64,000 nt of DNA from Geoglobus ahangari (GTDB lineage: Archaea; Halobacteriota; Archaeoglobi; Archaeoglobales; Archaeoglobaceae). Below, piece after piece: positions 54,137 through 60,310 of this stretch (position 1 is its first letter; every line of letters starts with the position of its first letter). The DNA is taken from NCBI RefSeq assembly GCF_001006045.1, contig NZ_CP011267.1:620001-684000 (forward strand), in the 5' to 3' direction. The translations under genes and the position numbers were made by a program. The notes below the pieces were generated by a model. That model was not told the origin of the DNA, searched no databases, and saw nothing but the letters and a program-made list of their open reading frames with translations.

Positions 54137-54988
54137 ATGAGGATCTGCTTCAGAGTTCGGGAAAACGGAAACCCGCTGAGAGGCTACGTTCTCTCTGGAG
54201 GCAGGAAGTTTTACGTCGATGGGTGTGCTGATATCCCTGAGAAGTTTCTCAAAAGCGGTTTCGTATTCGTTGGTGAGTACTTGGGCCATGAGTTCGAGTA
54301 CAGGTTTGACGAGCCGTTTTCCGAGGTTCTGATATCCGAGGGGGAGCTGCTTTACGACACCTCCTCGCTCGACCTGAAGCTCATCGAGCAGCTTGTTTTT
54401 TCCGGGATTAACAGGTTCAGGGAGGAGAAGGGGCTTGAGAGTATTAGGTGGAGCGAGAGGCTGGCAAAAATCGCGAGAGAGAAGAGCGCTCTCCTTGAAA
54501 AAGAGTTCAGTCACAACGCAGGCGGAAAGAACGCATACAGGCTGCTCAGGGAGAGAGGTATTTACTTCGTTGCCGTTGGGGAGAACATCTACAGGATTGC
54601 AGGGCTTAAGTCGAGCGTTGGAGAGGAGGCGATTGCGGAGAGGTGCGTTGAGGGGTGGAAGCGAAGCAGGGGACACAGAAAGGTTATGCTCTCCGAGTTC
54701 ACCCACTGCGGGGTTGGAGTTTACGCAAGGCAGAAGGACGTTTACATAACGCTGATTGCAACGCTGAACAGAGTCGTGGTGGAGTCCAAATTCACCAAGG
54801 GCCAGACGCTCCTCCTTCAGCCCGTGGACGAGGAGTTTGACGGAAAGGCAAGGATTGCTGTGAGAGCACACCCGGACAGGTGCTTTTCCCTGACGTATCC
54901 AGAATACGCCGGTAGGGAGGACTTCGTAGAGGTCAGGGTGCTGGAGAGCTGCAGGGGAAGGGTGGTTATTGAGTATCTGGACGTGTAA
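54137..54988 (+). CDS. CAP/SCP-domain protein without signal peptide
   Basis: 283 residues from ATG 54137, 20-27 nt after TATTTAATAC. Residues 1-80 form an unknown beta-rich domain; about 85-230 is a CAP (SCP/PR-1) domain with the four family marks: KEFSHNAGG with the first His, [20 protein letters not shown] with the second His, and GVGVYARQ. The last 50 residues are another strand-rich segment. Bacterial CAP proteins are usually secreted; here no signal is seen. Confidence 0.8.
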
Positions 54989-55790: not shown

Positions 55791-56315
55791 ATGGCGAGGA
55801 GACCAGCGAGGATGTGGAGGAGGCTCGAGAGACCCTACACGAGAAAGGAGTACATTGATGGTGCACCGGGTACAAGGCTCAGGCAGTTCGAGATGGGCAA
55901 TAAAAAGGCCGAATTCCCCGTCATGCTCACCCTTGTCGCAAAAGAGGCTGTTCAGGTTAGGGATACCGCTCTGGAAGCCGCGAGAATTGCTGCGAACAAG
56001 TACATAGCAAGGAGAGCCGGTTCGAGCAACTACTTCCTGAAGGTCAGGATCTACCCGCACCACGTTCTGAGGGAGCACAGGATGGCTACGGGAGCTGGAG
56101 CGGACAGAATTTCGCAGGGAATGAGGAAGGCCTTCGGAAAGCCTGTGGGGCTTGCGGCGAGGGTGAAGCCGGGAACGAAGATAATGAGCATCTGGACGAA
56201 GCCCGAGCACTTTGAAGTCGCAAAGGAGGCGCTGAAGAGGGCCGGGCAGAAGATGCCGACCCCGGTCAGCATAGTTGTTGAAAAGGGAAGGGAGCTTCTG
56301 AAGGGAAAGGTTTAA
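55791..56315 (+). CDS. rpl10e: Ribosomal protein L10e (uL16)
   Basis: 174 residues from ATG 55791, starting MARRPARMWRRLERPYTRKEY as in archaeal L10e. Further family segments are AARIAANKYIARRAGSSNYFLKVRIYPHHVLREHRMATGAGADRISQGMR and GTKIMSIWTKPEHFEVAKEALKRAGQKMP. The open frame upstream of 55791 lies across the TATA box. It converges on ribB with a 4-nt overlap. Confidence 0.96.
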   Translation: MARRPARMWRRLERPYTRKEYIDGAPGTRLRQFEMGNKKAEFPVMLTLVAKEAVQVRDTALEAARIAANKYIARRAGSSNYFLKVRIYPHHVLREHRMATGAGADRISQGMRKAFGKPVGLAARVKPGTKIMSIWTKPEHFEVAKEALKRAGQKMPTPVSIVVEKGRELLKGKV

Positions 56316-57013
56316 ACCCTTATTTTAAGCTCCTCCGCTCTCTTTTTGTAGTACTCGACCACCTCTCTGCCCTCTACAAACGGAATGTCGTATTCGGCGG
56401 CATACTTCATCGCATCCTCCTTCGACAGCGCCCTCCCACTCTTGTCGTCGAGCATCTCGCATATCGCGACAGCTGGTGTGATGCCGGCAAGCTCCGCTAT
56501 GGCTATGCTCAGCTCGGTCTGCCCGACTCTCTCGTAAACGAGCTTCTGAGACGCTTTCAGAATTGCCACGTGTCCCGGGCTTCTGAACTCCCTGCCGAAG
56601 TCGAAGTCCTCACCGCTCAGAACGCTTTTAACAGCTTCACCAACCTTCCTTATTGTCAGGCTCCTGTCCACGTCGGTTATGCCCGTGTACGTGTCGCGGT
56701 GGTTGACCCAGAGGCTGAAAGACGAGCGGGAGTCGTAGCTTATGTCGAAGTGAGCGATCCTCTCAAGCTGAGGAAACATTCTGGCCGAGAAGCTCAGGAT
56801 GTCGTGCATGAACGGCAGTCCGAGCTTTTCCGCGGCGCTGAACGGGATCGACACGCAGATAAGCCCACCGCCATCTATCCTCATCATCGCCACATCTTCG
56901 GGCTCAACGCTCAGGGCGGGGATGGCTATGTCCGTCTCCCCTTCCCTGTCGTCGAAATCGTAAATCAGAACGGGCTTGCCCTTCCTGAACGCCTTTATCG
57001 CATCTTCAATCAT
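56312..57013 (-). CDS. ribB: 3,4-dihydroxy-2-butanone-4-phosphate synthase
   Basis: 233 residues. Makes the four-carbon unit of riboflavin from ribulose 5-phosphate. Acidic metal loop FDDREGETDIAIPALSVEP, DRSLTIRKVG, FRSPGHVAILKAS, VGQTELSIAIAELAGITPAVAICEMLD and GRALSKEDAMKYA are all characteristic. It starts 4 nt inside rbkR, so it shares that operon and its control. Confidence 0.95.
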   Translation of the reverse strand: MIEDAIKAFRKGKPVLIYDFDDREGETDIAIPALSVEPEDVAMMRIDGGGLICVSIPFSAAEKLGLPFMHDILSFSARMFPQLERIAHFDISYDSRSSFSLWVNHRDTYTGITDVDRSLTIRKVGEAVKSVLSGEDFDFGREFRSPGHVAILKASQKLVYERVGQTELSIAIAELAGITPAVAICEMLDDKSGRALSKEDAMKYAAEYDIPFVEGREVVEYYKKRAEELKIRV

Positions 57014-57657
57014 AGCAGCACCTCAACCTCCACCTCATCACCATCTTTAAGGCCCAGCCTGTCCCGCAGGCTGACCGGGGCGATAACCTCGAGCACGTCC
57101 TTGCTGTAGTGCGTCCTCTTCGGCATTATGACCGCGCCCTCAACTCCGTCAATCCTGCACCTGAACGCTTTAACTTCTCCGAACGTCCTGTCCTCAGTCT
57201 TGAATCCCTCAATCAGAATTCCCTCCTCCTCGTCAAGCATCCTCCTGAAGTACATCTGCTCCTTCGGGATCTTCAGGTTCAGGGTGCCGGGGTAGGGCGT
57301 GAAGCCGAGCTTCTCCTCGAACTGCCTCCTGTACCCATCGAGGCTGACGTAGTACTTCCCCTCCCCAACACCGCTGATGACTCTCCCCTTGATGCAGACC
57401 TTGTCCTCTCCCTCGAAGATCTTCTTCAGGTCGAGGTACTCCCTGTAGAGCATCTCCTTTCCCTTCTCGGTTATGACTATGTACTGTCCGTCCTTGTCGA
57501 GTATCCTCTCGATGAGCCCGTTGTCTTCAAGCTCCTTCAGCTTTCTCGCGGCAGTCTGAAGGCTCTGGTCTATCTTCTCGGCGAACTCCTTTGAGCTGAG
57601 CTTGACGACCTTTCTTGTCGCGTTCATCAGTGCGAGCTTCTTGAGCGCATCGATCAT
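57010..57657 (-). CDS. rbkR: Bifunctional CTP-dependent riboflavin kinase / regulator RbkR
   Basis: 215 residues. Residues 1-85 are a winged helix (LALMNATRKVVKLSSKEFAEKIDQSLQTAARKLKELEDNGLIERI); about 88-215 is the DUF120 CTP-dependent riboflavin kinase (GRVISGVGEGKYYVSLDGYRRQFEEKLGFTPYPGTLNLKI, then RTHYSKDVLEVIAPVSLRDRLGLKDGDEVEVE). Fusions of this kind are the known archaeal riboflavin-pathway regulators named RbkR. A palindrome immediately upstream is the probable operator. Confidence 0.93.
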   Translation of the reverse strand: MIDALKKLALMNATRKVVKLSSKEFAEKIDQSLQTAARKLKELEDNGLIERILDKDGQYIVITEKGKEMLYREYLDLKKIFEGEDKVCIKGRVISGVGEGKYYVSLDGYRRQFEEKLGFTPYPGTLNLKIPKEQMYFRRMLDEEEGILIEGFKTEDRTFGEVKAFRCRIDGVEGAVIMPKRTHYSKDVLEVIAPVSLRDRLGLKDGDEVEVEVLL

Positions 57658-57675
57658 CTTCTCAAAAATGAGAAG
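57658..57675. promoter_or_regulatory. Palindromic operator at the rbkR start
   Basis: CTTCTCA and TGAGAAG are separated by AAAA and directly abut the rbkR ATG at 57657; a third half-site CTTCTCG follows at 57676-57682. With the TATA (minus-strand GATTTATAAC, about 57682-57691) only 7-16 nt away, the palindrome covers the expected transcription start, an ideal place for self-repression by RbkR. Confidence 0.6.
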
Positions 57676-57729
57676 CTTCTCGTTATAAATCTGTTGGTTT
57701 GTTGCGGGGGGTGTGCAAAAATAGTGGGG

Positions 57730-58479
57730 TCAGGAATGCCTTTTGAAGGCGGAGATAACCTCCTCAAAAACGTCCTCCCTCGATCCGGAGCTGAGGAGAA
57801 CGATCTTCTTGCCCGGAATTGAGAGGAAGGCCTTTATCATCTCTTCCAGAGCCTCACCATCGAGGTTCCCCTCCGAGTACTCCCTAACATGCAGATCTTG
57901 GCCAAGGTACCACACGACAACATCCGGATTTGCCTTGGCTATGCCCTCAACGACCTCCTTGAACCTGCTCAGGTACTTTTCAGGCTCAGAGCTGCGGGAG
58001 ATCCTGCACTTCATGTCCACAACGTCTTTGCACTTATTCTCCCCGGAGATGCAGAAGAATCTGGCGTCGCAAACCCTGTAGGACTCACTGTGGTGGGTGT
58101 CGGTCTCGAGAACGGCAATCTTCTCGAACCCCTTCTCCTTCAGCCTCTCGATGAGTATCGCGAGGTCGTTGAAGAAGCTGTACCCCCTCCACCTGTCCCT
58201 TTCCGCGTGATGACCCGTGCCAACCGTCGGGACTATCACGACCTCATGCTCCTCCACCTCATCCGCCGACTTGAGCACGCATTTTATGGACTCGTAGGCT
58301 GGCCTGAAGAAGGGGGTGTTCTTAACCCTCTCAAAGTATTCTGGGGTGTGGAATCTGAGAATGTAATCGTCTGGTGTGATTTCCGAGGAAATGTGCCTTT
58401 CTCTGAATCCGGAAAACCTTTTTGACGCGCCGAGCCACTCTGACGCCATATCTTTATTATAAATTATTGCAATTCCCAT
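57730..58479 (-). CDS. Histone-deacetylase-superfamily protein
   Basis: 249 residues from ATG 58479. Class II HDAC-like pattern: HTPEYFERVKN, PTVGTGHHAERDRWRGYSFFNDLAILIERLKEKG with the active-site His pair, VLETDTHHSES with metal ligands, and WYLGQDLHVREYSEGNLDGEALEEM with the distal Asp. It probably deacetylates a small amide or a protein lysine. TTATTTATTAATTTT about 25 nt upstream of 58479 fits a promoter. It is divergent from the RACo-like gene. Confidence 0.83.
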   Translation of the reverse strand: MGIAIIYNKDMASEWLGASKRFSGFRERHISSEITPDDYILRFHTPEYFERVKNTPFFRPAYESIKCVLKSADEVEEHEVVIVPTVGTGHHAERDRWRGYSFFNDLAILIERLKEKGFEKIAVLETDTHHSESYRVCDARFFCISGENKCKDVVDMKCRISRSSEPEKYLSRFKEVVEGIAKANPDVVVWYLGQDLHVREYSEGNLDGEALEEMIKAFLSIPGKKIVLLSSGSREDVFEEVISAFKRHS

Positions 58480-58531
58480 ACTATCCTTTTCGGGAAAATT
58501 AATAAATAATTTTTGCGGATTTCTCTGATTG

Positions 58532-60310
58532 ATGGTAAAGGTCGTTTTTCTCCCTTCAGGAAAAAGAGCGGAGGCTGAAAAGGGGAAATCCATTCTCGAA
58601 ATCGCTCAGAGTGTTGGTGAGGGTATAAGGAGTCTGTGCGGTGGCAAGGGAAGCTGCGGGAAGTGCAAGGTCATCGTCAGGAACGGTGAGTACGAGATAA
58701 ACCCTGAGCCGCACGAGAAGTTCGTCTCCAAGAAGGAGAGGGAGAAGGGTGTCGTTCTGGCGTGTCAGACTTATTTGATGAGCGATGCTGAGATATACAT
58801 CCCGCTCGAGTCGAGACTTGAAAAGCAGCAGATTCTGAAGGACTTCATCGTGTCGGGGAAGGAGCTTCAGCCCGACGTCAGAAAGGAGTTTTACGCTGAC
58901 GCGTTCTTGCCTGAAGTTCTCTCGAAGAACGGTTACAGGCTGTCCTGCTCCCCTGAGGTGGAGGACGGGGATCTGACCCTCGTTCTGAGGGGAAATGAGG
59001 TTATAGCGGTTGAGGAGGGGGACACGAGGAACGAGTTTTACGGACTGGCGATAGACATAGGCACAACCACACTCGTCACGGCGCTTGTTGATCTCAATAC
59101 TGGTAACGTGGTGAACATAGCCTCGGACTACAACGGCCAGATCATATACGGCGAGGAGGTGCTCTCGAGAGTTGAGTTCGTCTTCAGCCGGAAGGACGGG
59201 CTGGAGATACTGCAGAAGGCAGTTGTGGAGTCGATAAACAAGCTTGTGGACAGGCTTCTTGAGGGTTACTCTTCCCCCGAGAAGATATACGATGTGGTTG
59301 CGGCAGGAAACACTCTGATGACCCACTTCTTCCTCGGCATGGACATCAACTACCTCTTCAAGTCGTCGAACGTGAGGGTGGAGAAGAAGGGCTACACCGC
59401 CCTTGCCTCACAGCTCGGGCTGAAGGTTAATGAAAACGCTCTCGTCTTCGCTCTACCTCCGGTTGGCAGGTATGTGGGTGGTGACATAGTCGGAGATGTG
59501 CTCGCGAGCGGCGTGGTTGACTCTCCATACCTCTCGCTGATGGTCGACCTCGGCACGAACGGAGAGATTGTGCTCGGCAGTGAGGGCTGGGCGATATCCA
59601 CGAGCGTCGCGAGCGGCCCGGCGTTTGAGGGTTATGAGATAAAGCACGGCAGCAGGGCTGTGGAGGGCGCGATAGATCATGTGGAGATCGTGGATGGGGA
59701 GGTGAAGTACACCGTCATAGGCAACAAGAAGCCGAGGAGCATATGCGGCAGCGGGCTCATAGATCTGCTGGCTGAGCTGCTCAAAAACGGCATCGTGGAC
59801 TTTCAGGGCAACCTCGACACCAAGCACCCGAGGGTCAGGAGGGGTGAGGACGGCTACGAGTTTGTTGTGGTGGAGGGAAGCGAGACGGAAACGGGAGAGG
59901 ACATCGTCTTCACCCAGAACGACATAGACACGCTGATAAAGTCGAAAGCTGCAGTCTGCGCGGGAATAGCGGTGCTGATAAAGAAGGCCGGCATAACTCC
60001 GGCTGATGTTGACAGGTTTTACATCGCTGGCGGCTTCGGCTACTACATAAACTTCGAAAACGCGGTGATCATAGGGCTTTTCCCCGAGCTTCCTAACGCC
60101 GAGGTCAGGCAGATAGGAAACGGCTCCCTCGCCGGAGCTTACCTCGCCCTAACGTCCAGGAAGAAGAGGCAGCTCGCGGAGACTATGGCGAAGCTGATGA
60201 CATACTTCGACCTGAGCACGGATGCGAACTTCATGGAGGAGTACAACGCCGCTCTCGCCCTGCCCGGTAAATACGAGCTTTTCCCGACGATCTACTCAAA
60301 GTACGTCTGA
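58532..60310 (+). CDS. RACo/RamA-like ASKHA ATPase with N-terminal ferredoxin domain
   Basis: 592 residues. The N-terminal 2Fe-2S domain has Cys36, Cys42, Cys45 and Cys78 (CGGKGSCGKCK and LACQTY). A linker is followed by the DUF4445 ASKHA fold from about 170: LAIDIGTTTLVTALVDL, VVAAGNTLMTHFFLG, MVDLGTNGEIVLG and FYIAGGFGYYINFENAVIIGLFP. These proteins reductively reactivate cobalt in corrinoid methyltransferases using ATP. No corrinoid protein is encoded in the window. ATG 58532 is used. Confidence 0.9.
   Translation: MVKVVFLPSGKRAEAEKGKSILEIAQSVGEGIRSLCGGKGSCGKCKVIVRNGEYEINPEPHEKFVSKKEREKGVVLACQTYLMSDAEIYIPLESRLEKQQILKDFIVSGKELQPDVRKEFYADAFLPEVLSKNGYRLSCSPEVEDGDLTLVLRGNEVIAVEEGDTRNEFYGLAIDIGTTTLVTALVDLNTGNVVNIASDYNGQIIYGEEVLSRVEFVFSRKDGLEILQKAVVESINKLVDRLLEGYSSPEKIYDVVAAGNTLMTHFFLGMDINYLFKSSNVRVEKKGYTALASQLGLKVNENALVFALPPVGRYVGGDIVGDVLASGVVDSPYLSLMVDLGTNGEIVLGSEGWAISTSVASGPAFEGYEIKHGSRAVEGAIDHVEIVDGEVKYTVIGNKKPRSICGSGLIDLLAELLKNGIVDFQGNLDTKHPRVRRGEDGYEFVVVEGSETETGEDIVFTQNDIDTLIKSKAAVCAGIAVLIKKAGITPADVDRFYIAGGFGYYINFENAVIIGLFPELPNAEVRQIGNGSLAGAYLALTSRKKRQLAETMAKLMTYFDLSTDANFMEEYNAALALPGKYELFPTIYSKYV

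Follow-up and report, generated by a model that had tools for sequence, protein, structure and literature searches.

The promoter of rbkR in the Geoglobus ahangari genome was found to carry three 7-bp half-sites between its TATA box and its start codon, and the dyad formed by two of them was found again at the promoter of a gene encoding a GTP cyclohydrolase II fusion protein. We consider it likely, judging from sequence, that the element is the operator of RbkR at both promoters, that of rbkR-ribB and that of GTP cyclohydrolase II. An operator of this kind had been proposed at rbkR by an earlier sequence-only reading, and the reading is supported by the family assignment of the gene, by the conservation of the site among rbkR orthologues and by the dyad at the second promoter.

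The rbkR-ribB operon and its promoter

The window, i.e. the whole stretch of 64,000 nucleotides that was analysed, belongs to a complete archaeal genome of 1,770,093 bases. On its minus strand, rbkR (57010..57657) encodes a 215-aa protein with a winged helix-turn-helix (HTH) and a CTP-dependent riboflavin kinase, as assigned by family, domain and structure matches, and ribB (56312..57013), assigned by domain and family matches, follows directly downstream with an overlap of 4 nt. The rbkR product scored 295.1 bits against NF010762 (HTH plus riboflavin kinase; cut-off 279) and 169.5 bits against PF01982 (cut-off 25). Its N-terminus matched Pfam HTH families at E<0.001 but below their own cut-offs, with the exception of HemN_C (26.8 over 24). 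The nearest solved structures were T. acidophilum 3cta and 5trd, and the alignment to T. acidophilum RbkR spanned residues 6-213 with GTLN and EGFKTEDRTFG among the stretches kept, whereas PDB 2p3m (M. jannaschii RibK) aligned to the kinase half only. These matches supported the proposed RbkR identity of the gene, and the placement of ribB next in the operon was borne out by the shared strand and the overlap; in all 50 orthologue loci read, ribB was the next gene after rbkR and had the same orientation. Upstream of rbkR, a histone-deacetylase-family gene was found on the same strand (57730-58593), and divergent from the latter a gene for a RACo-type protein with a 2Fe-2S domain (58529-60310).

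Read on the minus strand, the promoter consists of a TATA box, the three-half-site element and the ATG of rbkR, in that order. The TATA box (TTATAAAT at 57683-57690, ATTTATAA on the minus strand) adjoins the third half-site, and its core TTTATAAC begins 32 nt 5' of the ATG. The proposed palindrome of 7-bp arms with a 4-nt gap, CTTCTCA-AAAA-TGAGAAG, was recovered at 57658-57675 with 0 mismatches and the third half-site, CTTCTCG, at 57676-57682, which confirmed the placement of both between TATA box and ATG. In gene direction, the predicted tripartite operator (57658..57682, minus strand) reads A/B-N4-C, CGAGAAG/CTTCTCA-TTTT-TGAGAAG, and is delimited by sequence and orthologue conservation; the slash marks abutting half-sites. 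The 5-bp TGAGA recurs in it every 9 bp with alternating orientation (TGAGA-N4-TCTCA-N4-TGAGA). The originally described palindrome is the second pair of half-sites, B-N4-C. The 14-bp A/B dyad CGAGAAGCTTCTCA (57669..57682, minus strand), identified by dyad searches as the unit common to the rbkR and GTP cyclohydrolase II promoters, is the better core because it recurs elsewhere, and half-site C (TGAGAAG, 57658..57664, minus strand) was largely specific to the rbkR promoter. The site had been described as overlapping the start codon region; the ATG of the ORF 57657..57010 directly abuts half-site C and is not overlapped by it.

The rbkR mRNA is probably leaderless, since the TATA core lies 32 nt before the ATG. 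Among the 36 ORFs of the window with upstream room, a good TATA box was found for 17, and for 10 of these it was 27-33 nt before the ATG. This geometry bears on an RNA-level explanation, in which the rbkR leader would act as a hairpin or riboswitch through the inverted repeat. Once transcribed, the dyad would fold into a stem, but the site falls between the TATA box and the ATG, where the mRNA is probably leaderless; moreover, at GTP cyclohydrolase II the dyad precedes the TATA box, outside that promoter's transcript, and no Rfam family reached its gathering score within 56200-58700 of the window in a test for the FMN riboswitch. We regard an RNA element as very improbable.

Conservation of the site among rbkR orthologues

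We compared the occurrence of the motif with chance levels. In the window we counted 4 inverted repeats with perfect 7-bp arms and a 4-nt gap, where 30 dinucleotide shuffles averaged 4.9, and the 18-bp palindrome at up to 3 mismatches gave 6 window matches, against 6.18 expected; taken by itself, the palindrome is at chance level there. The three-half-site arrangement occurred once in the window and once in 30 whole-window shuffles combined. In the whole genome, the 25-bp tripartite pattern at up to 3 mismatches gave five matches, of which that at rbkR had 1 mismatch and the remaining four 3 each, and the reversed-pattern control gave 0.

In 60 genomes including that of G. ahangari, an RbkR-family match was found in 58, one of which (G034) was weak and covered the HTH only. 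We read 50 rbkR loci, leaving out those of G034, G047, G049 and G054-G058, and 34 of the 50 had at least 54% identity to the RbkR of the window. The consensus in gene direction, TGAGAWG/CWTCTCA-N4-TGAGAWG, was present at up to 3 mismatches in all 34, where it occupies the stretch from TATA box to start, with 0 mismatches in 16, 1 in 10, 2 in 5 and 3 in 3. In shuffled upstream sequences (100 each, 3400 in total) no match at up to 4 mismatches was obtained, the best having 5; as the pattern came from the very sequences under study, this comparison is a contrast and not an independent p-value. Among the 16 more distant orthologues, the consensus was found at up to 3 mismatches in four (L010, L011, L053 and L057, 2 mismatches each); G037, a genome of the same order with 53.5% identity, had an rbkR site with 5 mismatches, and the remaining 11 loci had 5 to 9. 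The palindrome had been expected before orthologous rbkR genes, and this held throughout the closer orthologues and in a quarter of the more distant ones. Its absence before orthologous rbkR genes and other rib genes, which would have spoken against an operator, was not what we found: orthologues carry the site and one other rib gene carries its core. Because the site is conserved among orthologues, with the palindrome alone at chance level, we take it to be a real, conserved element on this sequence comparison.

The position of the start codon relative to half-site C varied among the 34 closer orthologues. The ATG lay within C (TGAG-ATG) in 17 and adjoined it in 11, including that of the window. 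In L033, L045 and L022, the ATG was 9-31 nt further downstream and C still read TGAGAAG; therefore, C is not merely a start codon. The spacing from TATA box to dyad at rbkR ranged from -2 to +7 nt, which allows steric blocking.

We also inspected 23 of the 30 loci from a search with the T. acidophilum chain. An operator was present at one of them, L282 (Archaeoglobaceae), and none was recognised by eye at the other 22 (Thermoplasmata and others), where some starts were uncertain. Second, kinase-only RbkR-family matches beside RbkR were seen at G004:C20:2039-2428, G036:C224:4470-4814 and G037:C6:74388-74801.

The GTP cyclohydrolase II promoter and the extent of the putative regulon

GTP cyclohydrolase III had no match in 36 of 37 genomes searched, including all 25 of the order, and the lack of matches in the order directed us to GTP cyclohydrolase II. 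In a scan of 37 genomes, sites emerged before the gene of a fusion protein in which a DHBP-synthase-like half is joined to a GTP cyclohydrolase II half. The fusion was present in 23 of the 25 order genomes searched and was not found in G005 and G007. In the G. ahangari genome, the dyad TGAGAAACTTCTCA is located at 407628-407641, directly upstream of the TATA box and followed by AAAA-TTATATA, with the likely ATG of the fusion 32 nt after the dyad. Only two perfect matches to TGAGAWRCWTCTCA were found in this genome, at 407628 in the GTP cyclohydrolase II promoter and at 674238 (window 54238) within a coding ORF, the R in the dyad pattern having been chosen with the GTP cyclohydrolase II site already seen.

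A dyad score of at least 14 was obtained at this promoter in 20 of the 23 order genomes, that of G. ahangari included. The exceptions were G011 (8.7), G022 (7.8) and G009, which was without the dyad despite having rbkR; the one fusion match outside the order, in G048, was also without a dyad at the GTP cyclohydrolase II gene. By a simple scorer, the TATA box followed the dyad at a distance of 3 nt in 16 of the 20, 5 nt in three and 16 nt in one. In G. ahangari, 4 nt separate the end of the dyad from the TTATATA core, and the dyad shares about 2 nt with the likely BRE. Between dyad and likely ATG we measured 30 to 36 nt in 19 of the 20 promoters, the exception being G018 with 43 nt. The steps between genera were not multiples of three, so that the reading frame differs and the conservation of the dyad is not that of coding sequence. 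In G. ahangari, the fusion frame is open upstream through the dyad to an ATG at 407617, and a longer fusion protein is conceivable there. Of the 23 order promoters, 2 have a mirror-oriented third half-site next to the dyad that matches at least 6 of 7 positions; in another three, the match is 5 of 7. The same dyad is thus upstream of the TATA box at GTP cyclohydrolase II and downstream of it at rbkR. In the six fusions aligned, the DHBP-synthase-like half was without the acidic loop seen in ribB, because of which it probably cannot replace ribB.

Two deviating cases were seen among the order genomes. The G009 promoter (L186) has TGAATCA in the place of the dyad of the same-genus G020, before the same AAAT-TTATATG, and its rbkR and rbkR operator are intact. 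In G022 and G003, no CTP-dependent riboflavin kinase was found, with a weak GTP cyclohydrolase II dyad in the former, an intact one in the latter and assembly gaps possible. The latter case touches on the alternative that the site is the operator of another regulator controlling rbkR-ribB and GTP cyclohydrolase II. RbkR binding is itself deduced from sequence, and G003 keeps its dyad with no riboflavin kinase found in the assembly; that assembly, however, comprises 30 contigs and may have a gap, the dyad of G022 is weak where no kinase was found, and strong sites next to a TATA box were seen at rbkR as well as at a single riboflavin entry gene, a footprint to be expected of an autoregulator. 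We consider another regulator unlikely and RbkR the better candidate.

The other riboflavin genes examined showed no such site. No dyad was found within -200 to +45 nt of arfC, ribH or ribC in G. ahangari or in the relatives' loci examined, a range that would not reach a promoter located higher up an operon; the best scores were 10.7 for arfC (30 loci), 6.5 for ribH (30) and 12.1 for ribC (21), whereas scores at the promoter of GTP cyclohydrolase II were at least 14. The expectation that the motif would precede other rib genes was therefore realised for the GTP cyclohydrolase II fusion, as the dyad core, and not for these three. The search motif originally suggested, CTTCTCA-N4-TGAGAAG, was too loose to define a regulon, with 206 genome matches per strand at up to 3 mismatches (72 for the reversed control); among the matches listed, one was inside the GTP cyclohydrolase II gene (407862) and none in its promoter. 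What recurs is not this exact motif but the abutting dyad TGAGAAG/CTTCTCA (57669-57682).

At up to 2 mismatches, the dyad gave 84 and 97 matches in the genome (24 and 24 for the control), and because of these numbers we weighed perfect and one-mismatch sites only. The other perfect dyad of the genome, at window 54238-54251, falls within an ORF that encodes a CAP domain, and the one-mismatch dyads inspected besides rbkR were all in ORFs, two of them (L200 and L202) only in short ORFs of 91 and 77 aa without an adjacent TATA box. In the relatives, all 13 perfect dyads inspected outside rbkR and GTP cyclohydrolase II were inside coding ORFs, those at G006:C440, G006:C498 and G039:C99 being left out of this count. 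Two operator-like sites with 1 mismatch were seen away from the riboflavin genes seen: L123/L263 (G013:C22:47336-47360), in short ORFs only, and L125 (G022:C49:32978-33013), with a fourth half-site. No Pfam family match was obtained for the neighbouring proteins tested.

Proposed direction of control and comparison with known regulators

RbkR is reportedly an archaeal riboflavin kinase and regulator, described with its operators by Rodionova et al. in 2017, where CTP is said to favour and FMN to weaken its binding to DNA; the T. acidophilum protein has reportedly been studied in vitro. In G. ahangari, an RbkR dimer would bind the A/B dyad, and half-site C at rbkR may add a contact that tightens binding to its own promoter. 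On rbkR-ribB, the bound protein would cover the start-site region and block RNA polymerase. Autorepression is the natural reading because the site lies between TATA box and start, and we hold it to be likely; the closed feedback loop of the sequence-only reading is likewise a prediction.

At GTP cyclohydrolase II, RbkR would bind beside the BRE, and the direction of control is harder to call. By analogy, activation has about an even chance and repression through TFB exclusion somewhat less, activation being slightly more likely because archaeal sites directly upstream of the BRE activate in the cases compared, as far as the passages available describe them. Low FMN would then leave RbkR on DNA, with GTP cyclohydrolase II on and rbkR-ribB held down, and the reported weakening of RbkR binding by FMN fits biosynthesis being activated at low FMN. 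Against activation, the overlap of the dyad with the BRE favours TFB exclusion, and opposite control of the two entry enzymes (GTP cyclohydrolase II on, ribB off) would be physiologically odd, the more so because the DHBP-synthase-like half of the fusion probably cannot replace ribB.

In a second model, RbkR represses both promoters, by start-site occlusion at rbkR-ribB and by TFB exclusion at GTP cyclohydrolase II, so that both entry enzymes are lowered together. The dyad reaches into the BRE and to within 4 nt of the TTATATA core, both enzymes are needed together and the DHBP-synthase half of the fusion is degenerate, all of which suit dual repression. However, homeostasis would then need FMN to strengthen DNA binding, opposite to what is reported for other RbkRs. 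In addition, the archaeal sites directly upstream of the BRE in the cases compared activate, according to the passages available (PMC4158304, PMC7830388). We regard dual repression as a serious possibility that falls short of probable. The model with opposite signs, in which one operator core turns rbkR-ribB off from after the TATA box and GTP cyclohydrolase II on from before the BRE, and the third half-site tunes RbkR to its own promoter first, is put forward as a tentative proposal that is less likely than not.

The opposite placement of the dyad at the two promoters bears directly on whether RbkR activates or represses, and on whether FMN brings it onto DNA or off it. The predicted two-promoter regulon has exact coordinates in a complete genome and is small enough for in vitro work.

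The feedback circuit is of an already known kind, and RbkR itself has reportedly been published. As in known RbkR systems, a winged HTH is fused to a CTP-dependent riboflavin kinase, the predicted operator precedes both the regulator gene itself and a gene of riboflavin biosynthesis, and ribB is in the operon. What differs here is the operator, which is tripartite, repeats every 9 bp and has one half-site adjoining or including the start codon, and the second target, a GTP cyclohydrolase II fusion; the passages on RbkR in the literature available contained no operators of this lineage. M. jannaschii RibK (MJ0056) has the same kinase domain as the rbkR product but, in the part available of PMC8305020, is listed as an enzyme only and without the HTH present here, and the neighbouring number MJ0055 is listed there as ribB, the gene that adjoins rbkR in G. 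ahangari.

Both placements of the site have counterparts among other archaeal regulators, as described in the passages available. PMC4158304 cites A. fulgidus MDR1 as a case of start-site blocking; CopR sites are directly upstream of the BRE at most up-regulated promoters, and CopR at its own promoter blocks TBP/TFB (PMC7830388). A parallel in arrangement is TrmBL1/Tgr of Thermococcales, which represses from sites downstream of the BRE/TATA and activates from upstream sites (PMC4158304). There, as here, one palindrome lies downstream of the TATA box or upstream of the BRE depending on the gene, but the protein family and the ligands differ, and the sign of control, which is described for TrmBL1/Tgr, is for RbkR in G. 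ahangari a prediction.
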